A stretch of 47,438 nucleotides of DNA from a virus. This document shows positions 5,697-40,605 of this stretch, one piece after another. Position 1 is the stretch's first letter; the number at the start of each line of letters is the position of its first letter. The position numbers and the translations under genes are program-made. Under the pieces are notes generated by a model that saw only the letters and a program-made list of their open reading frames with translations, had not been told where the DNA came from and ran no database searches. The stretch is taken from positions 1 to 47,438 of IMG/VR virus record IMGVR_UViG_3300036832_001178, one strand, 5' to 3'.

Positions 5697-5699
5697 CAC

Positions 5700-7151: not shown

Positions 7152-7411
7152 TTGTGCCACCTTTCCAATCGCCGTAAATTTTCCTCATCCCACGGCCACT
7201 TACATGCTGCCTTTAGTTTCAGGCTTGCCATCCCAACGGATAAGGGATCGGTTGAAACTACAGTTGAAGGCCCGTCATACCAGACCATAAAACACGGTCG
7301 ACAAATGGGTATGCGGTGAAACGGTGAATACGGTCGTAAATACCTAGTCCCGCCGCAAGCTGAACACTTCACAAAACGTTGACCAGAAATATTTAACGCT
7401 ATACCTTGCAT
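7148..7411 (-). CDS. Small zinc-ribbon protein
   Basis: The 87-residue protein has CSACGG near residue 17 and CRPC near residue 38, forming a C-x2-C...C-x2-C zinc ribbon. Its ATG at 7411 overlaps the polymerase stop (TGATG) and its stop overlaps the clamp-loader start (ATGA), so it is translationally coupled to both. Possibly a replisome accessory or adaptor; this is inference from position. Confidence 0.6.
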   Translation of the reverse strand: MQGIALNISGQRFVKCSACGGTRYLRPYSPFHRIPICRPCFMVWYDGPSTVVSTDPLSVGMASLKLKAACKWPWDEENLRRLERWHK

Positions 7412-10400: not shown

Positions 10401-10689
10401 ACCGTATCTTCTTTCGTAGGTGCCGGGGGATTTTAGGCCGAAGGAGATCACCGCTCTTGCCGACAAACTGCACCCCTTCGCGGTCTTCTTCAGCACCGGG
10501 TGCTTCACCGATAATATAAATCAACGGTGTGTCACTGCCGGTTGCGGGCATTTTCGGTGATTTAAGCCGCTTTTCTTCTTTGTGCAGCGGACAGGCCCGA
10601 CAGCCTAGCTTGTGAAGTAAATCATCACTGACCCGATTGGTATTCTTTGCCGGTGTTCCGCCCTTACCGGACACAAACAATAGACCCAT
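7411..10689 (-). CDS. Uracil-DNA glycosylase/DNA polymerase A fusion interrupted by an intein
   Basis: Numbering from the ATG at 10689 (13 nt after the clamp stop, purine-rich GGGGGGAAG upstream), the precursor has 1092 residues. Residues 1-102 plus 337 onward form a family-4 uracil-DNA glycosylase: CRAC with C30 and C33, GEAPGAEED near 61, and after the intein CHPENNRDP and the C353 ligand. The intein is residues 103-336. Next come a 3'-5' exonuclease (VDYET with D490 and E492; YNGMD near 640) and a family A polymerase with motif A FDYGQIDAR (D846), motif B near R908-Y918 (FASFYG) and motif C QIHDDL (1020-1022, HDD where HDE is usual). A related glycosylase-polymerase fusion is, as I recall, known in SPO1-like phages. 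It should be the replicative polymerase, with uracil sensing or repair attached. Confidence 0.9.
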   Translation of the reverse strand: MGLLFVSGKGGTPAKNTNRVSDDLLHKLGCRACPLHKEEKRLKSPKMPATGSDTPLIYIIGEAPGAEEDREGVQFVGKSGDLLRPKIPRHLRKKIRWNNTINCVAGDTVVSSPGSIRKIFRHKFTGPLITPITRSGRVFSITQNHPVLTLRGWVAANEVVKGDYLVSSTDSDWEVITAGPYEYKCPTHISEIFDSICESGISQRVVGSTIDFHGDGSNSEIDIVSPFPELVNNWQVPTDKEIAQVTLALSAHRFGAVLANSQPFMFVSDFNSSFNEVVSDCSGATVYANSNLINTFSGKISFDEIIDIEVRAYSGHVYNLETDTGWYIANNAIIHNCHPENNRDPDKIEIECCRSRIEQDIERTKPSVIFGMGSFALQWAGKAAGSEMWRGRRFPIQIGSHTCWFYGFYHPSFILHQQKNTWKSDNEVAFDLDLKKAFAEVEAGLPVPVVHTAEQAKSNITCIEGRNNKDIRYLLEFLDYAGNCDVAGVDYETQNLRPYRRDSEILTAAVSVSDETVSFGYRHPQVGWDDHDLRQIDTAWVRFLKAQSIKAVHNLSFELEWTCYFYGNELVRSVPWADTMTQAYVLDERVGEQKFIGPLGLDFLCSQYFGFNLKPLTQGLNKENMRDEPLDKLLPYNGMDAKYHRLLFLEQEQRIIDEDLVSVYNEKLRQVPTAVLTQLIGIPIDRNENVRLQTDYAEKIKTVVEEIQALPEAKRFYQLTGKKLNPGSPPDVIVILRDILKTRIGQEGSGWSTKDSILKQIDEPIIHGIQTYRKLTKIKGTYIDPFSEGSPAVYAGDTLHQNLGTCFTETGRLQSDEPNCQNWPIRSPEGKKARKQVKAKVVASFDYGQIDARIIGCGSRDRNYCKALWENYDIHKHWAEKLAYHHPDFVGGKKNLKDPTIMKAFRNRIKSDWVFASFYGAALRTTAGRFGVDEDVLKPLFEEFWKEFHDVRVWQEELIKQFNEFGFVQLFDGLRRRAPLGRGQIINSGVQGATNRIVMHGMNRLSELGDDRYQARFQIHDDLTFLFDSENDFVDCVPTIIDTMLDGKEFDWFCVPLSVEVKSGPNWAELEEVGTYRSDIRLNWPHRAREFK
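9683..9711 (+). promoter_or_regulatory. Sigma70-like promoter for the antisense nuclease
   Basis: TTGTGT (9683-9688), a 17-bp spacer and TATATA (9706-9711) lie on the plus strand inside the C-terminal intein coding sequence. A start near 9718 would place the transcript just upstream of the GAGGT ribosome site at 9730-9734 and the nuclease ATG at 9742. Confidence 0.55.
9742..10356 (+). CDS. Antisense homing-endonuclease-like nuclease (HTH plus EDxHD/DUF559-type PD-(D/E)XK)
   Basis: This 204-residue protein is encoded entirely within the intein DNA on the opposite strand. GAGGT lies seven bases before the ATG at 9742; an in-frame ATG at 9676 precedes the promoter-like site and is unlikely. Residues 8-53 look like a helix-turn-helix (NDLIKAYLTGESINEIA and RTIRNYL). 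Residues 66-140 follow the PD-(D/E)XK pattern of very-short-patch-repair-like and DUF559 nucleases: E70, then IDLAI with D96, then AVEVD with E105 and D107, and finally GWTLIFVW. This family includes the EDxHD homing endonucleases linked to split inteins in phage metagenomes (Dassa and colleagues, 2009). Its codons lie exactly opposite intein codons. A role in copying the intein into intein-free alleles is inferred. Confidence 0.82.
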   Translation: MPAISPNFNINDLIKAYLTGESINEIAIRIHSSTRTIRNYLIKAGIEIRDKHEGLAIRKYGTKSMSGQGERYLCDLLISRNLPVIHQFREGTYNIDLAIRPIAVEVDSATNNPLRNTRFTNRIEYLTNMGWTLIFVWTRRDDFPITIGAADKIVAFYNFISSNPSAQGQHRVILGNGEDAPASRYWRNQWTGKFMPENLPNRSR

Positions 10690-10702
10690 GTCTTCCCCCC
10701 GG

Positions 10703-11857
10703 CTACTTTGTCGCGACGATGTGAATAAAGGCCTCCGATGGTACACTGCGCATAACAACACATTCATTGGTAATCATTATATACTTGCAGCTATCTAGCC
10801 CCCGCTTTAGTATCTTCGCATCGACCCTTACTTGAATTTCCGGGTGATCGTCTTCCTCTTCCTTTATATCGATGATATCGTTTATTTTACCGTGCTGGTC
10901 TTCCGCTGTAGCAAAGATAAATACTACTTTTTGGTCATCATCCTTATATTCCTTGCCAACCTTAAGGTTAATCGGCTGATCTTCGTCAAGTATAACCATT
11001 GCACGGTCAATTGACATCTTCATACCGCCCGGTATGGTGAAGTTTCCCTTGCCTTTAATATACCCGGCGATGTGTTTGGAGAAATCAACCACATCTTCAT
11101 CTTCAACTAAAGCCGAAAACAACAGTGATTTCACTATCACCTTTTCTCTAGGCGGATCCTTGTCATCTTTCTTTGTTGTATCGACTACTTCCGCAACAAG
11201 TACAGCTGAGTCACAATACACCGAATTAGCATCAAACCGTAACTTAGATCCGATCGGGCCTAAGTTCTTTAACTGCTCACAAAACTCGGTGGGGATAATA
11301 CACCGTTCATCTTCTCCTAATGATGAATTACCCTTTAACTTCACCCATGATAAACTCACCGCATCTGTCGAGTATATGTTAAACTCGGAAGTATTCTGGA
11401 TTAGTGTCACACCGCGTTGCTCCGGTGTAAGCACCTTTGCCGTACCGACCGACAGCAAACACCGATTAACACCGACTAGAAATTCCTTTGTGACTGTATA
11501 ACCTTCATCCTTCGGAATACTCGGGTTCCATAGCATATCAGAAATAGGCATTAGTGCCAACCTAGCAGTCGCGGAACCGGCTTTAACAACCAGAACACCG
11601 TCTTCTTTAGCATCCAGTTCCAATCTAACATTACGCGCCCTGCTCTTTTCAAGTATACCGAGTAAATGGTTACCGTTTACCCCGCCTTCAAAATCACTTT
11701 CAAACTCCATCCTAATGCCGAGTATGTCATTAAACGCGGATATATGAGTGCCGTCAAACCAGAAGTTATGCAACTCCCGGACCTGGTTCTTTTCACCGGC
11801 TAGCGCTGGTGACACAAGTTTCAGGATACTGACGATTACCTGTCGGTTGACTATCAC
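10703..11857 (-). CDS. DNA sliding clamp (beta-like)
   Basis: The 384-residue protein has the size of a bacterial beta clamp with three repeating domains. It opens VNRQVIVSILKLVSPAL with FWFDGTHISAFND, resembling the first beta-clamp domain, and ends with RVDAKILKRGLDSC and a short tail typical of clamps. The GTG at 11857 has AGGGGG five bases upstream; the GTG at 11863 sits directly on that site and is less likely. A CGTATATTT motif lies about 25 nt upstream. Position before the polymerase and in the same direction as the clamp loader supports the call. Sequence identity to known clamps looks low, so this rests on pattern and context. Confidence 0.7.
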   Translation of the reverse strand: MIVNRQVIVSILKLVSPALAGEKNQVRELHNFWFDGTHISAFNDILGIRMEFESDFEGGVNGNHLLGILEKSRARNVRLELDAKEDGVLVVKAGSATARLALMPISDMLWNPSIPKDEGYTVTKEFLVGVNRCLLSVGTAKVLTPEQRGVTLIQNTSEFNIYSTDAVSLSWVKLKGNSSLGEDERCIIPTEFCEQLKNLGPIGSKLRFDANSVYCDSAVLVAEVVDTTKKDDKDPPREKVIVKSLLFSALVEDEDVVDFSKHIAGYIKGKGNFTIPGGMKMSIDRAMVILDEDQPINLKVGKEYKDDDQKVVFIFATAEDQHGKINDIIDIKEEEDDHPEIQVRVDAKILKRGLDSCKYIMITNECVVMRSVPSEAFIHIVATK

Positions 11858-16720: not shown

Positions 16721-18094
16721 CTATACGGCTTCGGCTACCAGAACCGCTTCCCCGGCTTCCTCCGGGCTTTTTAACCGCGCACTATCTAGCCCGACAAATT
16801 CGACAGGTTCACAAGCCTTCGCGGCTAGTGCCGGATCGCCTTTTACAAAGAATAAAGCCGATTGATGTGTGCGGCCCAATTTACGTGACACATCGAATTG
16901 GCGCATTACACGCAAAGGTAACGACCCGACCGCTGTCACTAAAACGGCTTCATTGTAGAGATCACACCCGGCTTCAAGAAAGCACTTAATAGTCAAAGAC
17001 GGTAAGTTACGATACACCCCGTCCTTATCCCGTAAATCGCCGACTACAAAACAGGCAAAACGGTTGTCACGCAGTTTATCTACCGCCAGTGCGATGATTT
17101 TCTTATAGGCAATACAGAACTCACCCCATTCCATATTGGAAAGGTCATTCGGGTTGTCGCTGTATAACTCGAGATCATAGTACGGCGGACAACTAAAGAC
17201 GAAATCTACACTGTTGTTTGTATTATCGAGGATATCGTCTAGACCTTGGCTGTCACCGCACAACCATACCGGCATGTCTTCTTCATGACAGATTAGGTTG
17301 GCCTGTTGTTTGTTGGCCTTTACCTGTTCCGGCCTTAAATCTATACCGATGTAAAAACGTCCCAAAACGCTAGCAACAATGCCGCGAACAGAGCCACCAG
17401 CGAAAGGGTCAAGAATAGTCCCGCGAGCCGGACAAAACCATCGATAGCATAATTCACATACAACCGGATCAAATATTGATGTACCGGTTTGTGAGGCTTC
17501 AGGGTCTGGTACATATTCGTCATAGGGGTGAATGGTTGTGCCGTAAGTGAGGCCGTCTTTTAGTGAAGACGTTTCACCCGGCTTATTGGTTGCGTTGATA
17601 CTTTCACTACCGCCGACCGGCTTACCGTTTGCCCCTAGCCATACCGATTTGTGACTGGGGCCACCGCCCGGTTGTGAATGGAATTTAGTACGCGGCTTTC
17701 GGACTTCTTCTTCTTCTTCATCATCATCAAACCTGTTAGTAATCCCTTTTCTTAAATCCTTGCCTGTGACATACAATCCTTGGTTCGGTGTACGCCCGTT
17801 AAATTCGGCGGCTAGTTCAGCGGGGCCACCGGTGTTATATGTTTTAGCTAATGGGCGAGTGCCTTCCTTGTGTCGGTAATGGTCGATATCTTCACCGACA
17901 TCACCGTTAAGTGTCAGCCCTTCACCACGCCCGAGTTCGGATTTTATACCTAGTGCAATCCATGCACGCTTCATGTTTTGCCATGCACCATCACGAGCCG
18001 ACCATACCGAAAACGGTGGATAACGTAACCGCTGGCCTAAGACTGATTTATGGCCTGATCGTTTGGGCCTACCGACTAGATCCGTGGTCTTCAT
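16721..18094 (-). CDS. DNA methyltransferase (N6-adenine or N4-cytosine type)
   Basis: The 457-residue protein has AdoMet-binding motif I ILDPFAGGSVRG at about 228-237, a following acidic strand YIGIDLRPEQV, and catalytic motif IV SCPPYYDLEL at 301-310 (the S/D-PPY type of amino-methyltransferases). The N-terminal 110 residues are basic (SVWSARDGAWQNMKRAW) and precede an acidic EEEEE stretch; they may recognise DNA. The I-then-IV order fits exocyclic-amino methylases. The PPY is preceded by SC rather than ND, a mild deviation. No restriction enzyme lies next to it, so it is probably a solitary methylase protecting or regulating phage DNA. Confidence 0.82.
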   Translation of the reverse strand: MKTTDLVGRPKRSGHKSVLGQRLRYPPFSVWSARDGAWQNMKRAWIALGIKSELGRGEGLTLNGDVGEDIDHYRHKEGTRPLAKTYNTGGPAELAAEFNGRTPNQGLYVTGKDLRKGITNRFDDDEEEEEVRKPRTKFHSQPGGGPSHKSVWLGANGKPVGGSESINATNKPGETSSLKDGLTYGTTIHPYDEYVPDPEASQTGTSIFDPVVCELCYRWFCPARGTILDPFAGGSVRGIVASVLGRFYIGIDLRPEQVKANKQQANLICHEEDMPVWLCGDSQGLDDILDNTNNSVDFVFSCPPYYDLELYSDNPNDLSNMEWGEFCIAYKKIIALAVDKLRDNRFACFVVGDLRDKDGVYRNLPSLTIKCFLEAGCDLYNEAVLVTAVGSLPLRVMRQFDVSRKLGRTHQSALFFVKGDPALAAKACEPVEFVGLDSARLKSPEEAGEAVLVAEAV

Positions 18095-18129
18095 TCGACG
18101 GAACCTAGCAGAAGTTATAGCTGATTACA

Positions 18130-18242
18130 AATAAAAAAGTGCGGTGCCAGTCGACGGGGGTAAGGGGAGTATGTCACCGGCACCGCAAGTCTGCCTTTGG
18201 GGAATGTGGTATACCGGGAAGGCACCTCCCTTTCTACCACAT
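18130..18242 (-). ncRNA. Small structured RNA with terminator
   Basis: After a GCGTATATCT motif (18248-18255) the minus strand forms a perfect 9-bp hairpin AATGTGGTA/TACCACATT (18201-18241) enclosing GGGAGGTGCCTTCCC, then a 9-bp stem TGCGGTGCC/GGCACCGCA (18138-18185) followed by T6 (18131-18136). Promoter-like motif, two stems and terminator define a self-contained unit of about 110 nt with no credible frame. The C-rich loop of the second stem (CTCCCCTTACCCCCG) resembles the loop of the RNA at 15204-15354, so the two may be related. Confidence 0.55.
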
Positions 18243-18717: not shown

Positions 18718-19763
18718 TTTCTATATCCCATTATAGGTGCTGCATTATTCGGAGGTATTGGAGGTTGTATCGGTGCAGAAGGGTCACCTTCATAAGCTCT
18801 CGGTTTTTGTGACACTTTTGATGCTTTTTTGAACTCTTTAATATGATATAAATCATCCACTATACTTTGAGGCAAAGTATTGCATCCAGAAAGTAGATCG
18901 ACTATAACTCGTTTAAGTTGGTTGTCCTCAAAAGCCTCATCATATCGTTTTACTTCTCTACGAGCTATTTCAACCAGTATTTCCTGTAACTCCTCTATTG
19001 TTTTTTCCCCGTATTCTTTCATTAAATCATCGTACAAATCCGGATCTTCATAGTCTTCTAATTGTTCATCATCTTGCAGTTGTTCTTCCAACTTAACCTC
19101 CTCTTTTTTTACGAATCGATCCCGTAAGCTGTCGATCATTTGCTGTTCTATTGCTTTTAACTTCACGTAATCTCTCACTTTCTCCTTGCTTATAGTATAA
19201 TGGGTACACTTAAAGAACTCTAAGATGTCATCAACACATTTGTTGCACACTAACGAGTGTTGAAAGTCCTTACCGGATTGGCCGTGGGGAAAAAACTGTT
19301 TTTTTCTCAGATAATCAGATATTGTAATAACACTTTTTTTATCCTCATCAGCAAATGCAAACCCGTTACATATCAGGCATGTTATACCGTAGGTTTCAGC
19401 CACTCTTTCGCCTGTTACAATAATATTGTATTTATCTAGTAATACTTTCAAACCGTGAGGATTACTAGAACTGCAGATTCCTACTTCTCTAATTGCCGCA
19501 ACCAGCTCATTATCATCAAGGTGTTTAAATTCAGCTTGCTCACGAAAAATATCAAATACCTCGATTAGAAGATATCTATAAATATGTGTCGTATGGTTTG
19601 CTAAACAATCATATAACGGTGAATATTCAGTTTCGACTATATTACGGTACATATCATACGATTCTATATTACAACCATATTGATCCATCTCCATTTTGTA
19701 ATTACCAATAACATCATAATTCACAAAGGAAATCAGGTACTCATAATTACTAAGTTTTAGCAT
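18714..19763 (-). CDS. Hypothetical protein with CxxC pairs
   Basis: The 349-residue protein has two CxxC pairs (CLIC near 129, CNKC near 175), suggesting a zinc site, then a long acidic coiled-coil-like region (VKLEEQLQDDEQLEDYED) and a Pro/Ala-rich tail. It is richer in Lys, Glu, Asn and Ile than the replication genes, as are its neighbours. Its ATG is only about six bases after the T-run of a strong terminator hairpin and has no free ribosome site, so readthrough or an unusual initiation is implied. No family recognised. Confidence 0.55.
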   Translation of the reverse strand: MLKLSNYEYLISFVNYDVIGNYKMEMDQYGCNIESYDMYRNIVETEYSPLYDCLANHTTHIYRYLLIEVFDIFREQAEFKHLDDNELVAAIREVGICSSSNPHGLKVLLDKYNIIVTGERVAETYGITCLICNGFAFADEDKKSVITISDYLRKKQFFPHGQSGKDFQHSLVCNKCVDDILEFFKCTHYTISKEKVRDYVKLKAIEQQMIDSLRDRFVKKEEVKLEEQLQDDEQLEDYEDPDLYDDLMKEYGEKTIEELQEILVEIARREVKRYDEAFEDNQLKRVIVDLLSGCNTLPQSIVDDLYHIKEFKKASKVSQKPRAYEGDPSAPIQPPIPPNNAAPIMGYRK

Positions 19764-31914: not shown

Positions 31915-32229
31915 CTTCAAAATAATTTTTTCCCTAGACTTGAATCCGCCGTTGCCCGTACCCATCTCTAGTGTACGGAAAGAACGGTAGAAAGGGCAAA
32001 AACGACGAAAGCTTCGCGGAACGAGTGAGCGGGCCAAGGGCCAGACGGAGCGGTTCACGCGCTAGCGTGCGTGAACCCTAGGCCACATTGCCCTTAAGCA
32101 AGGCTTTGAGTCGAACCAGTAGGGACAACGGCGATCTGCCGGTTGTGACCGCGTGAAACTCGCGGAGCAATGCCCTGCACCGGATAGCAACCTCCTTGCG
32201 CGCATCCGACAGTAGGACACAAAAACTCC

Positions 32230-32336
32230 TCCTCCTAGCATTGTTCGGCAAGCTTTCACCTCCGCGTGGTGCCGAACGGGTAACGCTAACGAAAGCACGG
32301 TAGCGATTTTGCTACCACATTGATTTTCTAGGAGGA
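32230..32336 (+). promoter_or_regulatory. Leader of the 32341 gene with internal anti-Shine-Dalgarno and class I element
   Basis: TCCTCCTAG at 32230-32238 is the exact complement of CTAGGAGGA at 32328-32336, the ribosome site of the gene. Between them lie the class I element (GTTCGGC/GCCGAAC, 32243-32277, with GCTTTC pairing to GAAAGC at 32291) and a GGTAGC/GCTACC hairpin. The leader can therefore fold so that translation is blocked or open. Confidence 0.5.
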
Positions 32337-32340
32337 AGTT

Positions 32341-32685
32341 ATGACTCAGGTTTACAAAAACCGCTACCACCGGGCCGCTCGCGTTATCAACAATTCGTTG
32401 AACCGGACGGGCCGGTTGCCTACCGAAGCGCGGCTGGTTTCGCGTTGCGGTTTCGGTGCGCCGACGGCGCGGTACATTCTGATGGCATGGCGTGCGTATT
32501 GCGGAACCGACACGGTTACGGAATCGCCTAACCGCTATCAGCGTGCCGCATGGTGCATCAGCCGTTCGCTGAAACGGAACGGCAAGTTGCCGACAGCCGA
32601 TCATGTCGCGCAACAGTGCGCCCTTAGCGAGAACATCGCTACGGCCACCCTGGCGGCTTGGGAAGCTTTTTCCCAAGCCGCATAA
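32341..32685 (+). CDS. Tandem NRY-domain protein
   Basis: The 114-residue protein consists of two copies of one helical repeat: NRYHRAARVINNSLNRTGRL followed by ARYILMAWRA, then NRYQRAAWCISRSLKRNGKL followed by ATATLAAWEA. The same unit is found once at the C-termini of the proteins at 13607 and 32799. The basic, helix-turn-helix-like repeat suggests nucleic-acid binding (inference). It has the strong CTAGGAGGA ribosome site and the most elaborate leader in the window. Confidence 0.7.
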   Translation: MTQVYKNRYHRAARVINNSLNRTGRLPTEARLVSRCGFGAPTARYILMAWRAYCGTDTVTESPNRYQRAAWCISRSLKRNGKLPTADHVAQQCALSENIATATLAAWEAFSQAA

Positions 32686-32710
32686 CTACCCGCACCCGCC
32701 TGGGTGCGGT

Positions 32711-32766
32711 GCCTGACGTGCTTTCACCTCCGCGTGGTGTCGGGCGGGTAACGCCAACGAAAGCAC
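32711..32766 (+). promoter_or_regulatory. Class I structured leader, copy 2
   Basis: GCCTGAC/GTCGGGC forms the outer stem; inside it CTTTCACCTCC is followed by CGTGGT, and GTGCTTTC pairs with the later GAAAGCAC. The core is nearly identical to copies at 32243 and 33557 while the outer stem changes on both sides. Confidence 0.6.
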
Positions 32767-32798
32767 CTAACCTCAATATTCTAGGAGGAGTTAAGCGT

Positions 32799-33491
32799 AT
32801 GGCTAAGATTAATGACACTGCGGACAAGTACCTGATCGAGAACAGCCGGGACGATCTTCGGTCTGTGATCGATAAGTACGGGTTTTCAGTCAGTTACAAC
32901 GGCAAATCGTTTCTGGTAGCCGATCCGGTTATCCAGGCCGTTGACGGCAAAAGTGCCGGGAAGCACACTGGAAAGGATTTGGATACGCTGTTGCAAAATG
33001 CGGTTGACGATCGCATCGTGTTCGACAGCAACCCGAAGCCGGTTCAGGGTGCCGAGGTGACAGATGCGGAACCGATCCCGGTTACGGAACCGGAGCCGCA
33101 GCCGGAACCGGTGACACTCCCGGTGGTGACAGATACCGATCCGCAACCCGAGCCGGAAGGCGAAACGGTTACGGAGACGCCTGAAAAGAAAGGCGACTTG
33201 TCCGGTGACATCGAACTCGATGATACCGGCAAGCGGCTCCGTAAGCCAAAGGTGGTGAAGGAGCCGCGCGAGCCGAAGGCAAACCGCTATGAACGCACTT
33301 CCAACCTGCTACTCGGCAACTTGTCGATTAGTTCGGCTGAGGTGTCGGAGAAGGCTCCCATGAGCCCTTCGATGGCGGTCTTCTGCATCGAAGCCTTTAG
33401 GGGCATTACGAAGTCCTTACTCGAGGCGGGTATCATTCCCAAAAACAAGGCGGCACTTGTCACCGTTCCGCCAAAGCCTAGCAAAAAGTAA
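32799..33491 (+). CDS. Protein with acidic Pro/Glu/Val linker and C-terminal NRY domain
   Basis: From the ATG at 32799 (CTAGGAGGAG upstream) the 230-residue protein has an N-terminal domain (YLIENSRDDLRSVIDKYG), a Glu/Pro/Val/Thr-rich linker (residues about 85-145, PVTEPEPQPEPVTLP), a basic patch and a C-terminal NRY domain (NRYERTSNLLLGNLSISSAE, MAVFCIEAFRG). It resembles the protein at 13607 in overall plan, so the two may be functional counterparts on the two arms. Function unknown. Confidence 0.65.
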   Translation: MAKINDTADKYLIENSRDDLRSVIDKYGFSVSYNGKSFLVADPVIQAVDGKSAGKHTGKDLDTLLQNAVDDRIVFDSNPKPVQGAEVTDAEPIPVTEPEPQPEPVTLPVVTDTDPQPEPEGETVTETPEKKGDLSGDIELDDTGKRLRKPKVVKEPREPKANRYERTSNLLLGNLSISSAEVSEKAPMSPSMAVFCIEAFRGITKSLLEAGIIPKNKAALVTVPPKPSKK

Positions 33492-33506
33492 CACTCTCCG
33501 CTAGGT

Positions 33507-33514
33507 GCGTATAC
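33507..33514 (+). promoter_or_regulatory. CGTATA motif before a terminator
   Basis: GCGTATACTT on the plus strand, 15 nt after the stop at 33491 and just ahead of a terminator. It may be a promoter whose transcript is attenuated. Confidence 0.3.
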
Positions 33515-33519
33515 TTACA

Positions 33520-33556
33520 CAAGTGAAGGGATTTTTGGTTCCTTCACTTGTTTTTG
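33520..33556 (+). terminator. Rho-independent terminator
   Basis: CAAGTGAAGG (33520-33529) and CCTTCACTTG (33541-33550) form a 10-bp stem followed by TTTTTG. It lies between the 32799 gene and the class I element before the DUF932 gene. Confidence 0.85.
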
Positions 33557-33609
33557 TCCGACAAGCTTTCACCTCCACGTGGTGTCGGATGGGTAATGCC
33601 AACGAAAGC
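33557..33609 (+). promoter_or_regulatory. Class I structured leader, copy 3
   Basis: TCCGAC/GTCGGA is the outer stem; AAGCTTTCACCTCC, CGTGGT and GGGTAATGCCAACGAAAGC form the conserved core. The internal CACCTCC mimics the 16S anti-Shine-Dalgarno sequence and could pair with the downstream CTAGGAGG. Confidence 0.6.
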
Positions 33610-33649
33610 ACACTTGTAACCCTTTGATCCTCTAGGAGGAGTTAAAGCT

Positions 33650-34669
33650 ATGGATGCTGTTGAAACGATGGCCTATCGTGCGGACGGCGGGTTGCCCTGG
33701 CACGGTTTAGGTGAGCCGGTTTCCAACGACATTTCAGTTGATGAGATGTTGAAGGTTGCGGATCTTGACTGGACTGTCAGTAAGCGGCCCTTGTACTTCC
33801 GTAAGCAAACGGAAGGTGAGAAGATCGCGATGCGTATCGCACCCGGTGAATACGGGTTGGTACGTGACACGGACGAAGCCTTTTTTGACACGGTGGGCGA
33901 AAACTGGACGCCGACACAAAACCGCGATGCGGTTGAGTTCTTCACTCGTTTTGTGAAGGCTGGTGACATGCAGATGGAAACGATGGGTTCGCTGAAAGGC
34001 GGTCGTTTCATCTGGGCGCTCGCCCGTATCGGCGAAAGCTTTAAAATCGGTAACGGGATCGATGAAACCCGTGCCTATCTGTTGCTATCTTCACCGCACC
34101 AGTTCGGGTTTAGCCTTACGGCTGCACTTACACCGGTTCGCGTTGTTTGCTGGAACACCATCACCGCCGCGCTTGGACACAGACTCGACGGTAAGAACAA
34201 GGGTGGTGCCACTTTCCGCATGACACACGCGCGCGCCTTCGACGACGACATGAAGGCAAAGGCGGAACAGGCACTCGGCCTCGCACACGCTGAAATGCAG
34301 ACGTTTTCGCACACTGCGGAAATGTTAAGCGGTGTCGGCGCTAAGGTGTCGGACGTCATGGATTACTATCATGATGTTATGCAGATTGAGCGCGAGCAGC
34401 CGGATCCCGAAGGTGAGGATACGGAAGTGAAGATCAACTCTACCATCAAGCGGTTTGCTGACAGCTTGACTTTCGCACCGGGGCAAGACATCCCGACAGC
34501 GAAGGGAACCTGGTGGGGTGCGTTCAACTCGGTTACCTACACTGTCGATCACGAGCTGTGCCTCACCAGTGACACACGGCTGCACTCGGCATGGTACGGT
34601 TACGGTGCAGGCCTCAAGCGGCGCGCACTGGAACTGGCGGTTAATTACGCCGAGAAGGTTGCGGCGTAA
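33650..34669 (+). CDS. DUF932-family phage/plasmid-like protein
   Basis: The 339-residue protein matches the DUF932/TIGR03299 pattern: PWHGLGEPV near the start, DEMLKVADLDWTVSKRPL, VGENWTPTQNRDAVEFF, then RVVCWNTITAAL and a C-terminal segment with AFNSVTYTVDHEL. The family is common in phages and plasmids; its function is unknown. It has a class I leader and the strong ribosome site CTAGGAGGAG. Confidence 0.8.
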   Translation: MDAVETMAYRADGGLPWHGLGEPVSNDISVDEMLKVADLDWTVSKRPLYFRKQTEGEKIAMRIAPGEYGLVRDTDEAFFDTVGENWTPTQNRDAVEFFTRFVKAGDMQMETMGSLKGGRFIWALARIGESFKIGNGIDETRAYLLLSSPHQFGFSLTAALTPVRVVCWNTITAALGHRLDGKNKGGATFRMTHARAFDDDMKAKAEQALGLAHAEMQTFSHTAEMLSGVGAKVSDVMDYYHDVMQIEREQPDPEGEDTEVKINSTIKRFADSLTFAPGQDIPTAKGTWWGAFNSVTYTVDHELCLTSDTRLHSAWYGYGAGLKRRALELAVNYAEKVAA

Positions 34670-34674
34670 GACTT

Positions 34675-34750
34675 ACACAGAGGGCACCCGTTAAAAAACG
34701 GGTGTAATGTGGCAGCACGGTTCCCAAGCCCGTGCAACCTAACCCCACAT
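34675..34750 (+). promoter_or_regulatory. Class III structured leader, copy 1
   Basis: CACA/TGTG closes a hairpin CACCCGTT/AACGGGTG with a GAGG bulge; a second hairpin is GCACGG-TTCCCAAG-CCCGTGC. TGTGG can alternatively pair with CCACA (34745-34749) next to the ribosome site. Both stems covary with the copy at 35359. Confidence 0.55.
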
Positions 34751-34766
34751 TTCTAGGAGGAGTGTT

Positions 34767-35348
34767 ATGAAATCACTAACTGTTGGAATCGCGTTTCTTA
34801 CACTGATCGCTACCCCAGCACTTGCTGATACATGCGGCCTCGAGCCACAATGTCAACATCCCGATGTTCAATGGCACGGTGAAACCTGGCCAGCGGTTAA
34901 CGGGAAGTGCCCCGAGATTGCTTTAAGGTTTGGCGCGATATTGGACAAAGATATGATTTGTCGAATCGACAACTCACAGGCTACTGAAGCTGAAGACGAA
35001 GGCGAGACAAAAACTGTAACTGCGCCAACCGTCAACAACAACTCAGCTTCACACCCAGGTTACCCAACAATTGTCAATGGTATAAAGCTGGGCTGGGCGG
35101 GACTTACTGATTCCGAAACACTGTGTCTGTATGTCAACGGTCCAATATTTACTGATCACGATCTGATTCAAACCTGCAACGTACCTGAGGAACGCTACGG
35201 CAAAGCAATGGACTTGCTGATTTTACGGTATCGCAAATCCGGTAGAAATGGTATCCCTTGGGTAGATGATCACTGTCACGCCGAAACAGCAATGCCGCGT
35301 AACAAGTGGGTTTGCACCGAGGGTGATGTAACCTGGGAATGGCATTAA
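34767..35348 (+). CDS. Exported Cys-rich protein with signal peptide
   Basis: The 193-residue protein begins MKSLTVGIAFLTLIATPALA, a textbook Sec signal peptide with likely cleavage after ALA (residue 20). The mature part contains eight or more cysteines (CGLEPQC, CPEIALRF, CLYVNG, CHAET) suited to disulfides in the periplasm. Base composition is similar to neighbours. No family recognised. A role in changing the host envelope or excluding other phages is possible (inference). Confidence 0.65.
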   Translation: MKSLTVGIAFLTLIATPALADTCGLEPQCQHPDVQWHGETWPAVNGKCPEIALRFGAILDKDMICRIDNSQATEAEDEGETKTVTAPTVNNNSASHPGYPTIVNGIKLGWAGLTDSETLCLYVNGPIFTDHDLIQTCNVPEERYGKAMDLLILRYRKSGRNGIPWVDDHCHAETAMPRNKWVCTEGDVTWEWH

Positions 35349-35358
35349 ACAAACATAA

Positions 35359-35420
35359 CGCAGAGGACACTGGTGTAACAACACCAGTGTAATGCGGCTG
35401 ACTGGTTCCAAGCCCAGTCA
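35359..35420 (+). promoter_or_regulatory. Class III structured leader, copy 2
   Basis: CGCA/TGCG, ACACTGGTGT/ACACCAGTGT and TGACTGG-TTCCAAG-CCCAGTCA replace the corresponding stems of copy 1, keeping pairing while the bases differ. GAGG, TAATG and GGTTCC-AAGCCC are conserved. Confidence 0.55.
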
Positions 35421-35444
35421 AATGCTATCTAGGAGGAGTGTAAC

Positions 35445-35765
35445 ATGGATCCACTACGGCAACGTATGGACGAATCGGAACGCGCATGTATCGAAGCCGG
35501 TATTCCGCCGTTCAGTCGTATTCACCAAATGCGGGCACGTGGTATGTCGGATGACGCAATCATTGCACAACTTGTTATGGCACCCGCTTTACAAAGCGGG
35601 TTAATCGATTGCGCCATTCACGGTGTTCTCAAACACAGTTTCGAGGCCATCGTTCTTGAGTTTCCCAATCGCTTCACCACAGCCTGTCAACGGGGTGCAA
35701 AGGTAAAACTGCACTTCGTAAGGTCTTTGGATCAAGCGCAACTTAGAGAGTTACGCGTACAGTAA
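35445..35765 (+). CDS. Small hypothetical protein
   Basis: The 106-residue protein is mainly helical (GMSDDAIIAQLVMAPALQ) and starts with the strong ribosome site preceded by a class III leader. No family recognised. Confidence 0.6.
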   Translation: MDPLRQRMDESERACIEAGIPPFSRIHQMRARGMSDDAIIAQLVMAPALQSGLIDCAIHGVLKHSFEAIVLEFPNRFTTACQRGAKVKLHFVRSLDQAQLRELRVQ

Positions 35766-35828
35766 AGCCTTGCGGCAAGTCCATCAGGTAATACTGGTGG
35801 ACTTAGCGCAGTGCTTTACCCGCACTGC
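35762..35828 (+). promoter_or_regulatory. Class II pseudoknot leader, copy 1
   Basis: GTAAAGC at the 5' end can pair with the GCTTTAC loop of hairpin GCAGTGC/GCACTGC. Between them lies TTGCGGC and the hairpin AAGTCCATCAG/CTGGTGGACTT. The arrangement recurs at 36569, 37949 and 38302. Confidence 0.65.
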
Positions 35829-35860
35829 ATCTAGGAGGAGTGAAGAAAGGAGTTAAGATT

Positions 35861-36091
35861 ATGGCTTTGACAAGTGCAATCCACTTCAGGCTTGCCAACG
35901 ACTGGCGTGCGCGTGAAGGTGCCGAAGTCATGTTGTCCGACATTAAGGACGACTTGAACAAGCACATCGCTTTCGCGCGCGATAACCTGAAGTCGGCAAA
36001 GAACAACAGCGATAGGGTAGCTGCGGCTGGTAGCGTCAAGGCACTAGTCGAGTTCAAGGAATACCTTGATCGCATTGTTGTTGTGGAGTGA
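35861..36091 (+). CDS. Small helical protein
   Basis: The 76-residue protein starts at the ATG at 35861 (AGGAG eight bases upstream; a GTG seven codons earlier overlaps the other ribosome site). It is almost entirely helical (MLSDIKDDLNKHIAFARDNL). Unknown function. It is the first of four tightly packed genes. Confidence 0.6.
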   Translation: MALTSAIHFRLANDWRAREGAEVMLSDIKDDLNKHIAFARDNLKSAKNNSDRVAAAGSVKALVEFKEYLDRIVVVE

Positions 36092-36094
36092 CAG

Positions 36095-36172
36095 ATGAGA
36101 CTTATCTGTCTACTCATAACAGTAGCCGCCTCTTTGGCGCTGCTGTTCCGAATGTTCCCCGTTCACGCCTAA
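36095..36172 (+). CDS. Tiny membrane peptide (25 aa)
   Basis: ATG at 36095, three bases after the previous stop with GGAG six bases upstream, opens a 25-residue hydrophobic peptide (MRLICLLITVAASLALLF...) ending PVHA. Its stop overlaps the next ATG (TAATG). The arrangement of a signal-like peptide followed by a second membrane protein resembles small lysis or membrane gene pairs, but no motif proves that. Confidence 0.5.
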   Translation: MRLICLLITVAASLALLFRMFPVHA

Positions 36173-36315
36173 TGACACTCTTGTGGTTGTTAGGTGAAGT
36201 AGTGGTAGCAATAGCCGGTGTGTTTCTGTGGTTCTTTCTTGTGTATATCACAGTACGCATCGGCGCTACCGCTTACTTCAGGACAAGGGACGATTGGGAA
36301 AGGAAAAAGCGGTAA
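36172..36315 (+). CDS. Small membrane protein
   Basis: From the ATG at 36172 the 47-residue protein is one long hydrophobic helix (LLGEVVVAIAGVFLWFFLV) with a basic tail (DDWERKKR). A longer frame from GTG at 36088 overlaps the tiny peptide and is less likely. TAATG couplings join it to both neighbours. Unknown function. Confidence 0.55.
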   Translation: MTLLWLLGEVVVAIAGVFLWFFLVYITVRIGATAYFRTRDDWERKKR

Positions 36316-36569
36316 TGTTTACCCCGATGAATGAATCGCAGACAAAGCGGTTGCACTTCCAAGATCATGAAGTGCAATGGGTACAAGGTGAAACACGCCG
36401 TGGCCCTGGTTGGCACGGTATCGTAGAAATCGCAGGTAAGATGTACAACGTGTACGGACTTAACTGCGGTAGTGAAGCGTGTTTTTGCGATGCGTATATC
36501 GTAGAAATAAGCAAAGCATCACGTCGGAAGTCTGTACCGTACATCCCAGATGGACGGAAGTACCCTTAG
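36315..36569 (+). CDS. Small hypothetical protein
   Basis: The 84-residue protein starts at 36315 by TAATG overlap. It has a compact beta-like region (GPGWHGIVEIAGKMYNVYG) and CGSEACFC. It may bind metal through these cysteines. Not recognised. Confidence 0.55.
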   Translation: MFTPMNESQTKRLHFQDHEVQWVQGETRRGPGWHGIVEIAGKMYNVYGLNCGSEACFCDAYIVEISKASRRKSVPYIPDGRKYP

Positions 36570-36627
36570 AAGTATTGCGGCAGTGACATCCTACGGGGTG
36601 TCACTAGCGCAGCACTTCCACAGCTGC
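36569..36627 (+). promoter_or_regulatory. Class II pseudoknot leader, copy 2
   Basis: GAAGT pairs with ACTTC in the loop of GCAGC/GCTGC; hairpin AGTGACATCC/GGGGTGTCACT replaces AAGTCCA/TGGACTT of the other copies with compensating changes. Confidence 0.65.
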
Positions 36628-36644
36628 ATATCTAGGAGGAGTTT

Positions 36645-36854
36645 ATGAAGATCACCAAGACATCAATCCTATCCGGCAAGGAACACACGATGGACCTGCC
36701 GGTGACACAGGAACAGATCGACACTTACAACAAAGGTGCATTGGTGCAGCGCGCCTTTCCGCACCTATCAGCGGAAGAGCGTGAGTTTCTTTTGACTGGT
36801 ATCACACCAGCCGAGTGGAACAAAGCCTTTCCGCCTGATGAAGACGAGTATTGA
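36645..36854 (+). CDS. Small conserved phage protein
   Basis: The 69-residue protein reads MKITKTSILSGKEHTMDLPV with RAFPHLSAEEREFLLTGIT near the end, a pattern I recall from small uncharacterised proteins of many tailed phages. Function unknown. It has a class II leader and the strong ribosome site, and is followed by a terminator. Confidence 0.65.
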   Translation: MKITKTSILSGKEHTMDLPVTQEQIDTYNKGALVQRAFPHLSAEEREFLLTGITPAEWNKAFPPDEDEY

Positions 36855-36875
36855 TTCCCCAATGAAACAATCTGT

Positions 36876-36911
36876 TGAAGCCTAGCGCGCAATGTGCTAG
36901 GCTTCTTTTTT
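36876..36911 (+). terminator. Rho-independent terminator
   Basis: GAAGCCTAGC and GCTAGGCTTC form a 10-bp stem around GCGCAATGT, followed by TTTTTT. Confidence 0.9.
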
Positions 36912-36928
36912 CTAAGGAAATCAGTGCC

Positions 36929-37174
36929 TTGGCGAACAAAAACAAAGAACGTATTCGGCAATGGACAGAAGATCATGTGGCTAATGCTGATTACTTTGTT
37001 ATCCGCATGTTTTTAGGCCGTGGTGAATACGACATCGTAACCGCAAAGACTTTGCGAGAAGCGAGACAAGCGAAACGTGATATGATCGAGAAGTGGAAGG
37101 GACAGGATTACGGGCATCGACCCGCGATCTATGTTGTCACCAAAGGTATTCCGCTTACCGTTCATGTCGAATAG
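36929..37174 (+). CDS. Small hypothetical protein with TTG start
   Basis: The frame opens upstream inside the terminator, so the TTG at 36929 (AAGGA ten bases upstream) is the likely start, giving 81 residues. It has GEYDIVTAKTLREARQAKRD and RPAIYVVTKGI, a strand-helix-strand arrangement. Unknown function. Confidence 0.5.
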   Translation: MANKNKERIRQWTEDHVANADYFVIRMFLGRGEYDIVTAKTLREARQAKRDMIEKWKGQDYGHRPAIYVVTKGIPLTVHVE

Positions 37175-37186
37175 AAAGTATCGGAA

Positions 37187-37384
37187 ATGGCCGAAGTAAC
37201 ACTCGATACATTGCACGACGATATAATGGCGATACGTATCGACATTATTCGTCTTGAAGCCAAGATCGATAGTAAGCCGTCAATCATGGCCATGTTCACC
37301 GGTATCTTTATCGTTGTCTTTGGCATGGCGAGTGTCATCGGAACTACAATCAGTGTTCTCGCTGCCTTACACGTATTCAAGTAA
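37187..37384 (+). CDS. Small coiled-coil/membrane protein
   Basis: The 65-residue protein has an N-terminal amphipathic helix (LHDDIMAIRIDIIRLEAKID) and a hydrophobic helix (MFTGIFIVVFGMASVI). This is the layout of XhlA-like or holin-accessory proteins, but it could equally be another membrane anchor. Start by ATG at 37187. Confidence 0.5.
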   Translation: MAEVTLDTLHDDIMAIRIDIIRLEAKIDSKPSIMAMFTGIFIVVFGMASVIGTTISVLAALHVFK

Positions 37385-37397
37385 AGGAGTGTCGATT

Positions 37398-37874
37398 ATG
37401 CGTACCCTTGATGATCTACTAAAGGACGGTGAAGCTTACGCCCGTATACTGTTACTGGAAAAAGGCGTTAAGCAACTCGACCCGGTGTATCAGCTTTACG
37501 ATGAAGACGGCACCATTCATGTGGTACCGTGTCCATGGGCAAACGACTTCCAAAAACAGGTAATGTTATCGGAAGTAAAGAAAATCGCGAAGAAAGTCAA
37601 CTGTCAACTGGTGTTGTTCGTATCGGAAGGTTGGATGGCATCACGGCTACCAGGGCGCGAAGCCGAGGGTCCGGCACCAAGTAAAGATCCGAATCGGATC
37701 GAAATTGTCAATATCATAGCGTCAACAACAGCCGATACAAAAATACTGATACTCGAAACGGTTCGCGACAAGGTGACAAACCGTATTATCGAGTTAAAAA
37801 AGCACACTGATGACATGATAGCCGCTGGCGGGCCGTTGATCGATGGTATCGTACAAGCGCCGACACTGCACTAA
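37398..37874 (+). CDS. Hypothetical protein
   Basis: From the ATG at 37398 (AAAGGAG upstream) the 158-residue protein has an alpha/beta region (VYQLYDEDGTIHVVPCPW, CQLVLFVSEGWM) followed by a loop with LPGREAEGP and a helical C-terminus. It looks like a compact domain, but I do not recognise it. Confidence 0.6.
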   Translation: MRTLDDLLKDGEAYARILLLEKGVKQLDPVYQLYDEDGTIHVVPCPWANDFQKQVMLSEVKKIAKKVNCQLVLFVSEGWMASRLPGREAEGPAPSKDPNRIEIVNIIASTTADTKILILETVRDKVTNRIIELKKHTDDMIAAGGPLIDGIVQAPTLH

Positions 37875-37948
37875 CAAATTACAACCTAAATACCGCTTAG
37901 CAGGCGCAGGAGCGCGTCTGCGCGAGAGTGTGTAATAAAAGTTGTAAA

Positions 37949-38003
37949 GAAGCTTCGCGGCAAGTCCATCCTACGGGGTGGACTTTGCGCGGCGCTTTGC
38001 CGC
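37949..38003 (+). promoter_or_regulatory. Class II pseudoknot leader, copy 3
   Basis: GAAGC pairs with GCTTT in the loop of GCGGC/GCCGC, followed by TTTTT; hairpin AAGTCCATCC/GGGGTGGACTT lies between. Here the second hairpin plus T-run resembles a terminator, so folding could control readthrough. A separate GCGCAG/CTGCGC hairpin lies just upstream (37900-37925). Confidence 0.65.
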
Positions 38004-38021
38004 TTTTTCTAGGAGGAGTGT

Positions 38022-38303
38022 ATGACTGTCATCGTAATCGACAGTGATCTATTCACCTGTTCAGTGGATAACAACAAGGTTGTTATGTCCGCTGAAATCA
38101 GCGACTTAGATCACCTGTATACCGACACCAACCTTAGAAGCGGTTTCGGTATCAAATCAAAGAAAACCGGCCAGGTTGTTCATTTCATGTTCAAATCAGT
38201 CGACGTGTGCAACGGTGACGTAGCTGGTTGGTTATTTCAACCGGTACAGGAAGATGTGCGAAAGCTGTCATGCCCGGTTGAAGTGTTAATCATCAACGAC
38301 TGA
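38022..38303 (+). CDS. Small hypothetical protein
   Basis: A 93-residue, beta-rich protein (MTVIVIDSDLFTCSVDNNKV; GQVVHFMFKSVD) with an optimal CTAGGAGGAG ribosome site five bases before its ATG. Unknown function. Confidence 0.6.
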   Translation: MTVIVIDSDLFTCSVDNNKVVMSAEISDLDHLYTDTNLRSGFGIKSKKTGQVVHFMFKSVDVCNGDVAGWLFQPVQEDVRKLSCPVEVLIIND

Positions 38304-38360
38304 AGTATTGCGGCAAGTCCATCTGTCACAAGGTGGACTTAGCGCAGCACTTCCCGCTGC
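38302..38360 (+). promoter_or_regulatory. Class II pseudoknot leader, copy 4
   Basis: GAAGT pairs with the ACTTC loop of GCAGC/GCTGC; between lie TTGCGGC and AAGTCCATC/GGTGGACTT. It overlaps the stop codon of the upstream gene and precedes the DUF2786 gene. Confidence 0.65.
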
Positions 38361-38389
38361 AACCCTTCATCTAGGAGGAGTGTTATACT

Positions 38390-39196
38390 ATGAGTGAAGA
38401 ACGGCAAAACGACGAAAAGCGCAAGGCGGTAGAACAACTCCAGAAAATTCTGGAACTGGCGCGCAACAACCCTAGTGAACATGAAGCGGCGCTAGCTATG
38501 GCCATGTTTCAGGAAAGGCTAGCCCGGTATAACTTGACAATGGCCGATATTGTCGGAAACACCAGTGTATTTGATAATATCATCCGGGATAACGACTTTG
38601 TTACCTACTTTTCCGGGTGGATCAAACCGCTGCTTAACGCTGTCGCCAAGCTGAACTTTTGCGGCTACTACTACACGTCGATTGACAGGCCAGGTGGTGA
38701 CAAACGCGGTTTTGATCAACACGCGCGCAAGCTGTATGTCGGGACAAACAGCAGGACTTACCTTATTCACAACTTCATCGGTGAAGAGGTGAATGTACTC
38801 GGTGCCAAGCTGTTCGGTGAGTATCTTATCGAAACGATGGAAATCCTGGTGAAGCAAGCGCGAAAAGGTGTTCCGGTATCGGAACAATCATCGTTTAAGA
38901 TCAGCTTTATGAATGCCTGCAGTTACCGGCTTTGTGCCAGAATAGCCGAAGAAATGGAAACCAAATCCGTAAAGGAGGTTGGTGGACTTCCGGCACTGCA
39001 AAGCATGTACGACAAGGCGCGGCAAAACGCTGAATCGTTCTTGGACGGCCTAAAGGTGAAGCGTACAACAAAGACTTCACTGGTGCAGTTCAATAACACC
39101 AAAGGCTACCGGGAAGGTTATGCGGCGGCTGACAGCATCGGGCTAAAGAAGCAAGTTGACGGCACCACACCGAACAAGCTTCGTATATCTCACTAA
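38390..39196 (+). CDS. DUF2786-containing protein
   Basis: Residues 1-60 of this 268-aa protein match the DUF2786 pattern: a helix with AVEQLQKILELARNNPSEHE, then ALAMAMFQERLARYNLTM. The rest contains a basic/aromatic domain (FCGYYYTSIDRPGGDKRGF) and ends with GYREGYAAADSIGLKK. DUF2786 is widespread in phages and mobile elements with no known activity. Strong ribosome site and a class II leader precede it. Confidence 0.75.
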   Translation: MSEERQNDEKRKAVEQLQKILELARNNPSEHEAALAMAMFQERLARYNLTMADIVGNTSVFDNIIRDNDFVTYFSGWIKPLLNAVAKLNFCGYYYTSIDRPGGDKRGFDQHARKLYVGTNSRTYLIHNFIGEEVNVLGAKLFGEYLIETMEILVKQARKGVPVSEQSSFKISFMNACSYRLCARIAEEMETKSVKEVGGLPALQSMYDKARQNAESFLDGLKVKRTTKTSLVQFNNTKGYREGYAAADSIGLKKQVDGTTPNKLRISH

Positions 39197-39208
39197 GGAG
39201 GGGTTAAC

Positions 39209-39246
39209 GGCGGAAGGTGTAAAAACCCTTCCGCCAACCTTTTTTT
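39209..39246 (+). terminator. Rho-independent terminator
   Basis: GGCGGAAGG and CCTTCCGCC form a 9-bp stem followed by AACC and a run of T. A TAGGAG ribosome site for the next gene begins at its end. Confidence 0.9.
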
Positions 39247-39258
39247 AGGAGTGTAAGT

Positions 39259-39453
39259 ATGCACCAACTCGAACACGAGTTACTGGAATTAAGCATCAGA
39301 ATCAAATTGGGAAGGTTTGATAGGGAAGAGCTTGTTTCTAGGCTGCGGGCATTAGCGACACAATCGCATGATTATCTTCCAGATCCCAATCTCCTGTGGA
39401 ACGAAGATGGCACCCGTGATTACACTGGTGAAGAAAAGCGGAGATCGGGATGA
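39259..39453 (+). CDS. Small hypothetical protein
   Basis: A 64-residue protein (MHQLEHELLELSIRIKLGRF...) with a helical N-terminus and TAGGAG upstream. It lies directly after a terminator, so its transcript depends on readthrough or its own promoter. Unknown. Confidence 0.5.
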   Translation: MHQLEHELLELSIRIKLGRFDREELVSRLRALATQSHDYLPDPNLLWNEDGTRDYTGEEKRRSG

Positions 39454-39662
39454 TTTTATTTGTCCATCTTGGCAGGGAGGAGTCTACGGGCGGGTGAGCG
39501 ACAGCATCGGCTTCCGGCACTGGTAACAGATGTCGGCCATCTACAAGGCGGTATCCGTCTCCTCTCGACATAGCCAGGTTGAAGCAAAGGCGTCCCTGGT
39601 TGTGTTTTTCATAGCGGAAATATCGTCGTCTGTCGATGAGAGAACGCGTAGCACATAACTTA

Positions 39663-39694
39663 GGCGGAAGTCGTGAGCTTCCGCCGCCTTTTTT
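39663..39694 (+). terminator. Rho-independent terminator
   Basis: GGCGGAAG and CTTCCGCC form the stem, followed by GCC and TTTTTT. The 200 bp before it contain no convincing gene; a 42-codon frame at 39530-39658 lacks a ribosome site. Confidence 0.85.
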
Positions 39695-39720
39695 CCAAAC
39701 AAAAAACAGGGGAGCACCAA

Positions 39721-39969
39721 GTGATCAGCTTTAAAATCGTAAAGCACCATCAAACTCGTCTAGACATGGTTGAAGTATTCAAAGATGATAAATTACTAGC
39801 TTGTATTTACGCTGATGCCGGTTTACCAGCATTAAAGTTGGTCAGTAAACACCTAGATGTACCCAATTGTGTAGTCGATCCGAATACACCACCAGCTGTA
39901 CTGCTACCATTTATCATACAAACCAAACGTATCCCTACGTCGTTTCCTGAAATCAAATACGAGGAGTGA
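39721..39969 (+). CDS. Small hypothetical protein with GTG start
   Basis: AGGGGAG lies six bases before GTG at 39721, giving 82 residues (ISFKIVKHHQTRLDMVEVF...). It is a strand-rich protein ending EIKYEE. A longer frame from 39673 crosses the terminator. Unknown function. Confidence 0.55.
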   Translation: MISFKIVKHHQTRLDMVEVFKDDKLLACIYADAGLPALKLVSKHLDVPNCVVDPNTPPAVLLPFIIQTKRIPTSFPEIKYEE

Positions 39970-39971
39970 AG

Positions 39972-40178
39972 ATGTGCACATTTTGCAACGGCACGCGAAG
40001 TGCTTTATGGAAGCTTGCTAGGGCCGGGAAATATTTTAGCTATAGCCCCTTGCCGGAACCGCTTCCCTATAGCAGAAACGCGCCACAAACGGCCTCTGAC
40101 AGTATTCACAAGGGTAGTAACAGTAAACCCGCAAAGGAAGATAAATGGAACGGCAAGACGCTAACGAACTCGCCATAG
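39972..40178 (+). CDS. Small CxxC protein
   Basis: GAGGAG lies five bases before the ATG at 39972; the 68-residue product begins MCTFCNGTRSALWK with one CxxC pair. The second half of the frame overlaps the diverged class IV element (40050-40110), so the C-terminus may be shaped by RNA constraints. Confidence 0.45.
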   Translation: MCTFCNGTRSALWKLARAGKYFSYSPLPEPLPYSRNAPQTASDSIHKGSNSKPAKEDKWNGKTLTNSP

Positions 40179-40387
40179 CAACATTTACCGCACTTACACA
40201 AGAGTGTAATAAAGCCGATATAGACCCCGGCAGCCCGGCTGTTGGTTATATTATCGCGACTATGATGGGGATGCATTACGCTTCCAACAACCCCTATATT
40301 GAAGAAACACGCGGTGACTATCGTGCACTATTAGTGTCTTCAATCCAAGAAGTCTTGGATATTGTGGATGATACGAGGTATGAATGA
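40145..40387 (+). CDS. Small helical protein
   Basis: An 80-residue helical protein (ANELAIATFTALTQECNKAD; GYIIATMMGMHYAS) overlapping both neighbours. It has the same layout as the 75-aa protein at 40952, possibly paralogous. Unknown function. Confidence 0.55.
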   Translation: MERQDANELAIATFTALTQECNKADIDPGSPAVGYIIATMMGMHYASNNPYIEETRGDYRALLVSSIQEVLDIVDDTRYE

Positions 40388-40605
40388 CCCAGGAGCTGGT
40401 CCACTTTCGTTTGATTCAAACCCCGTGTTGCGGACATTTGCTCTGTTGGGTAAACCCGCGTCTGCCCACGTATTGTCCTGAATGCTCGACACATATACTG
40501 CGGGTCTTAAGACAAGACGGTTCGCAAATATTGATTACTGATGAAGGTGCTTGGCTTCATTTTGACGGAGACAAGGATGCGACCGCTTCCGTGGACAAAG
40601 GTTGA
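40384..40605 (+). CDS. Small zinc-ribbon protein
   Basis: The 73-residue protein contains CCGHLLCW and CPEC, a clear zinc-ribbon arrangement, and starts by ATGA overlap. It may be a nucleic-acid or protein adaptor; no family recognised. Confidence 0.6.
   Translation: MTQELVHFRLIQTPCCGHLLCWVNPRLPTYCPECSTHILRVLRQDGSQILITDEGAWLHFDGDKDATASVDKG

Follow-up and report, generated by a model that had tools for sequence, protein, structure and literature searches.

Class II, a family of folded leader RNAs that shares its position with Twister-P5 and HDV-like elements in a phage genome

Results

The intergenic leaders of a phage carry a folded RNA family of about 60 letters, class II, that lies outside the Rfam catalogue; this conclusion is well supported. 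Four copies are present in the window, by which we mean the whole analyzed stretch of 47,438 nucleotides (IMG/VR record IMGVR_UViG_3300036832_001178). The helices of class II covary, two of its pairings exclude each other, and its copies hold the same position before genes as Twister-P5 and HDV-like elements. Tentatively, we read class II as an uncatalogued element for mRNA processing between cistrons, and most probably as a small self-cleaving ribozyme.

The four starts proposed by a sequence-only reading proved exact, and the ends are given in Table 1. The order that it had described, TTGCGGC, a hairpin, AGC or TGC, a second hairpin and CTAGGAGG, is likewise present in every copy, with TCGCGGC in copy 3. 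Each element consists of strand a (5-7 nt), one base, TTGCG, GC, hairpin c (8-11 bp with a variable loop), AG, CGCAG, one base, strand a', 0-4 nt and strand d' (GCTGC or a variant), and the ribosome-binding site follows 5-13 nt further 3'. The six sequences that we compared (the four window copies and one copy from each of two other viral contigs) are 52-67 nt long and come from phages differing in base composition, and the GCGGC and GCGC core is invariant in all of them. Three of the four window copies have AAGTCCATC..GGTGGACTT in common. All four copies lie between open reading frames, and class II was therefore rejected as protein-coding sequence. The upstream stop codon overlaps the 5' edge, that is strand a, in copies 1, 2 and 4 and in the copy of record G002. 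A terminator function was rejected as well, since a T run (TTTTTC after d) is found in copy 3 only among the window copies.

Table 1. Positions of class II copies, neighboring leader elements and ribosome-binding sites in the window and in record G001.
Element	Position	Strand	Parts or match
Class II copy 1	35762..35828	+	a 35762-35768; P2-5' 35770-35774; GC 35775-35776; c hairpin 35777-35804; AG 35805-35806; P2-3' 35807-35811; a' 35813-35819; d' 35822-35828
Class II copy 2	36569..36627	+	a 36569-36573; P2-5' 36575-36579; c hairpin 36582-36605; P2-3' 36608-36612; a' 36614-36618; d' 36623-36627
Class II copy 3	37949..38003	+	a 37949-37953; P2-5' 37955-37959 (TCGCG); c hairpin 37962-37985; P2-3' 37988-37992 (CGCGG); a' 37994-37998; d' 37999-38003 (GCCGC)
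Class II copy 4	38302..38360	+	a 38302-38306; P2-5' 38308-38312; c hairpin 38315-38340; P2-3' 38343-38347; a' 38349-38353; d' 38356-38360
Ribosome-binding site CTAGGAGG after copy 1	35831..35838	+	
CTAGGAGG 3' of the other class II copies	36632, 38009, 38371		
CTAGGAGG 3' of Twister-P5 and HDV-like leaders	32328, 32781, 33632, 34753, 35429		
Twister-P5, leader of gene 34767-35348	34676..34733	+	Rfam RF02684, 54.9 bits, above gathering score
Twister-P5, leader of gene 35445-35765	35359..35417	+	Rfam RF02684, 55.1 bits, above gathering score
HDV-like A, leader of gene 32341-32685	32243..32296	+	HDV-F-prausnitzii, 23.6 bits, sub-threshold; P1 7/7, P2 6/6, P3 3/3
HDV-like B, leader of gene 32799-33491	32711..32766	+	HDV-F-prausnitzii, 28.2 bits, sub-threshold; P1 7/7, P2 8/8, P3 3/3
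HDV-like C, leader of DUF932 gene 33650-34669	33556..33609	+	HDV-F-prausnitzii, 21.8 bits, sub-threshold; P1 7/7, P2 6/6, P3 3/3
HDV-like in G001	L512:2506-2576		42.4 bits, cut-off 44
Twister-P5 in G001	L512:2915-2973		55.2 bits
Second HDV-like in G001	near L512:3206-3261		
Class II leader in G001	L512:3953-4004		55.5 bits (model trained on it)

Besides hairpin c, three pairings can form: a with a' (P1), TTGCG with CGCAG (P2) and GCAGC with GCTGC (d). The 5'-strand/loop pairings that had been proposed are real, although their lengths differ, with 7 bp in copy 1 (GTAAAGC/GCTTTAC) and 4 bp plus one G-U in copy 3. The earlier reading had overlooked P2, a third helix in competition with the last hairpin. 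P2 and d draw on one middle strand, so that only one of the two can form at a time, and each is conserved. Copy 3 carries three joint changes (T to C, A to G and T to C), and both P2 and d are still Watson-Crick paired.

Each window copy folds better than its shuffles (z = -4.0 to -5.1). A fold search that ignored the letters, run on window positions 32000-39300, returned four sites, exactly the four copies, and none in 300 dinucleotide-preserving shuffles; the fold signature was written after the copies had been seen, and this search consequently speaks for rarity and is not an independent test. By nearest-neighbor energies of the core alone, with the pseudoknot pairing unscored, a nested hairpin of P1, P2 and c lies 4.0-8.8 kcal/mol below the fold with c and d in all six sequences. 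This hairpin (-28 to -36 kcal/mol) is the lowest-energy core fold or within 1.5 kcal/mol of it in every case. For copy 2 with its flanking sequence the fold with c and d is preferred. The pairings of the proposed pseudoknot exist, but it is not established as the resting structure, given the lower energy of the nested hairpin and a linker L3 of 0-4 nt.

A stable hairpin of 20-plus bp between genes is also what an RNase III-type site would look like, cut by a double-strand-specific nuclease of the host or the phage as in the T7 early region. Together, P1, P2 and c span roughly two turns of helix and include an internal loop, and the nested hairpin is at or close to the energy minimum in all six sequences. 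RNase III needs little sequence identity; nonetheless, phages that differ in base composition all keep GCGGC and GCGC unchanged, and the conserved d' strand would be left without a reason. We regard a site of this type as unlikely.

The exclusive pairings P2 and d, both conserved, are typical of a switch, and four copies suggest a regulon. Class II might accordingly be a regulatory leader, in which binding of a ligand, or of a protein from phage or host, at the core would switch between the nested fold and the fold with c and d and so change the translation of the downstream gene or its stability. In a variant, the ribosome finishing the upstream gene would melt P1 and P2 and couple both genes. 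The stop codon over strand a (copies 1, 2, 4 and G002) is consistent with this variant, but such a placement could come from compact phage spacing alone. Moreover, although two exclusive folds are present, the AGGAGG site is part of neither core fold, d is terminator-like in copy 3 alone, and the neighboring leaders hold ribozymes and not switches. A regulatory role of this kind appears doubtful.

Tight pattern scans of viral contigs combined with a structure filter recovered two homologues, L268 (record G001, 45,412 bp) and L265 (record G002, 18,213 bp, GC-rich). In an alignment of the six sequences 99% of cells pair, and compensatory changes on both sides were found in 12-13 of the 18 pairs; none of 500 shuffles reached these values or equaled the totals. 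By helix, such changes affect 4/5 pairs of P1, 7/8 of c, 1/5 of P2 (with one more pair changed on one side) and 2/5 of d, where the counts rest on a hand-chosen register. MAFFT alignments set d' out of register, and in the alignment used (A4) linker L3 was therefore left out and the extra pairs of copy 1 were trimmed so that d' aligns. The compensatory changes claimed from the window alone are real, but they weigh less than had been assumed, because the four copies are close paralogues, and G001 and G002 supply most of the independent evidence. Together with the homologues and the conserved core, these changes bear out the claim of a functional RNA.

A covariance model built from these six sequences, which score highly by construction, found no copies in the window beyond the four; weak minus-strand matches were palindromic shadows of the same sites. 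G001 also contains a degenerate copy (L512:5118-5175, 29.8 bits) that keeps c and d, with P1 damaged and two mismatches in P2; its last 30-odd bases are identical to those of the intact G001 copy. Apart from the two homologues, the tighter scans of viral contigs gave matches without the stems, and looser DNA pattern scans gave chance-level matches, none of which passed the structure filter. Among the matches listed in a pattern scan of genome contigs, none passed this filter either. A pattern search of 754 genomes, from the classes around an alphaproteobacterium and a Burkholderiaceae genome, yielded no convincing homologue when the matches were judged by eye, and blastn of the class II copies against named phages returned chance stretches only. 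In a third relative (L516, helicase 58% identical), no match to class II, twister or HDV was credible. L516 holds 21 copies of GTCGAAAAGACC, at about 895-1080, 5495-6160, 17840-18200 and 19095-19390, each enclosed by a repeat whose long outer stems differ in sequence, and no Rfam match there explains them.

The leaders next to class II contain two Twister-P5 matches (E about 1e-8, Rfam) and three HDV-like elements, a ribozyme setting that the sequence-only reading had overlooked. HDV-like A, B and C carry a TCCGCGT or TCCACGT loop, form complete P1, P2 and P3 helices, and are probably ribozymes. Within one gene block, class II, Twister-P5 and HDV-like leaders all occupy a single slot before CTAGGAGG. 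Since this slot holds Twister-P5 and HDV-like elements in neighboring leaders, class II points first to RNA cleavage or processing, and the riboswitch or phage-regulator binding site suggested earlier is kept as a rival. Directly 5' of HDV-like C lies a terminator-like hairpin (window 33519-33551, 15 pairs followed by a T run). Elsewhere in the window, at 7411-10767 on the minus strand, domains for uracil-DNA glycosylase and intein splicing are joined to a family A DNA polymerase in a single open frame.

Stable hairpins immediately 5' of the ribosome-binding site, and terminators within the region, would also suit a pure stability element, that is a 5' or 3' hairpin shielding the ends of the mRNA, or an antitermination RNA of the put type, acting without cleavage or switching. 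However, put sites are promoter-proximal and are not known to be repeated before each gene, and the conserved core and the two competing conserved helices would be unexplained. We consider this very unlikely.

The same mix of leaders recurs in G001, where HDV-like, Twister-P5 and class II leaders all precede CCTAGGAGG sites. By sequence, G001 is kin of the window phage, a distant relative; the helicase common to both is 63% identical over the aligned segment. The G001 homologue of window gene 32799-33491, which has the HDV-like B leader, has a class II leader; this homology (E 3e-7) comes from a single comparison and the match is limited to two short segments. In G002, class II is present and no ribozyme was detected. 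As the window phage and G001 share ancestry, the co-occurrence of class II with ribozymes may be one event and not two.

At the class II sites themselves, an Rfam search of window 34600-40500 with E up to 5 gave no match, including pistol, hatchet, twister-sister, hammerhead and other Rfam RNAs; it returned only twister and one weak chance match elsewhere. The twister CCCAAGCCC loop and the UAA cleavage step are absent from all six class II sequences. Class II was consequently rejected as twister, with core letters missing and no match to the RF02684 clan at its sites (E up to 5), and as HDV-like, with the wrong strand order, no HDV match and c loops that vary freely.

Discussion

Several observations favor a ribozyme: the two Twister-P5 and three HDV-like elements in the same slot, the mix in G001, the exchange of HDV-like B and class II before a homologous gene, a core (GCGGC...GCGC) amid freely covarying stems, and conservation of both P2 and d. 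Conserved core, covarying stems and length (small ribozymes range from about 50 to 80 nt) are supportive and not diagnostic. Against it count the failure to match any Rfam ribozyme at permissive E, the G002 contig, where class II occurs but no ribozyme was detected, and the P2 mismatches of the degenerate G001 copy. In addition, one study assayed ten candidate motifs that had been found alongside hairpin or hammerhead ribozymes on contigs, and none cleaved in vitro (PMC10085705), which makes association a weak guide.

The processing element that we favor could work as follows. During synthesis of a polycistronic early mRNA, P1, P2 and hairpin c would join into a single long stem that includes the conserved GC/AG internal loop, or adopt a pseudoknot closely related to it, and the RNA would be cut in or near the conserved core. 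After the cut, the CGCAG-C strand may leave P2 and be captured by d' (GCTGC). The downstream mRNA would then begin with a small hairpin a few bases 5' of the AGGAGG site, and hairpin c would cap the 3' end of the upstream mRNA. Such a strand exchange would account for the retention of both P2 and d despite their mutual exclusion. A more specific and more speculative form of this proposal, which we hold to be conceivable, is that class II represents a new self-cleaving ribozyme class, in which d' displaces the catalytic stem after cleavage, and that it is interchangeable with twister and HDV-like elements for cutting early mRNA into single-gene pieces.

Little is known about what small self-cleaving ribozymes do naturally in phages. 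In the present case, a single phage has three structural RNA kinds in one slot before successive genes, and a relative has another kind before a homologous gene. We did not find a leader array of this kind described in the openly licensed literature. If all three kinds cut, ribozymes would be routine processing sites of polycistronic phage mRNA; class II would then add one more class, some 55-65 nt long, to the known ribozymes.

Compared with known systems, class II shares its leader slot with twister (RF02684, clan CL00120), and the UGCGGC and CGCA of twister P2, beside P1, recall TTGCGGC...CGCAG. Class II differs in having no UAA cleavage step, no GAGG strand and no CCCAAGCCC loop, which makes both twister pseudoknots. 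Because these active residues are absent, the TGCGGC/CGCA likeness is a lead and not membership. T7-type RNase III sites are long hairpins between early phage genes; class II differs from them by its invariant core and its conserved competing 3' strand. Theta ribozymes are a described phage group of HDV-like ribozymes that are reported to adjoin tRNAs often (PMC10879173). Class II resembles them in being a small phage RNA, and HDV-like elements of this phage share its slot and stand before a homologous gene, but class II has no P3 with a conserved loop and a different strand order. ARAGORN found no tRNA in the window, and the mRNA-leader setting thus differs from that of theta ribozymes. The conserved nucleotides of pistol, in what we take to be its consensus, do not match those of class II. 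Pistol, however, has a hairpin loop that pairs with a distant single strand, and it is reported near phage genes (PMC6154101); read as a pseudoknot, class II shares this pairing and resembles a circular permutation of the pistol layout.
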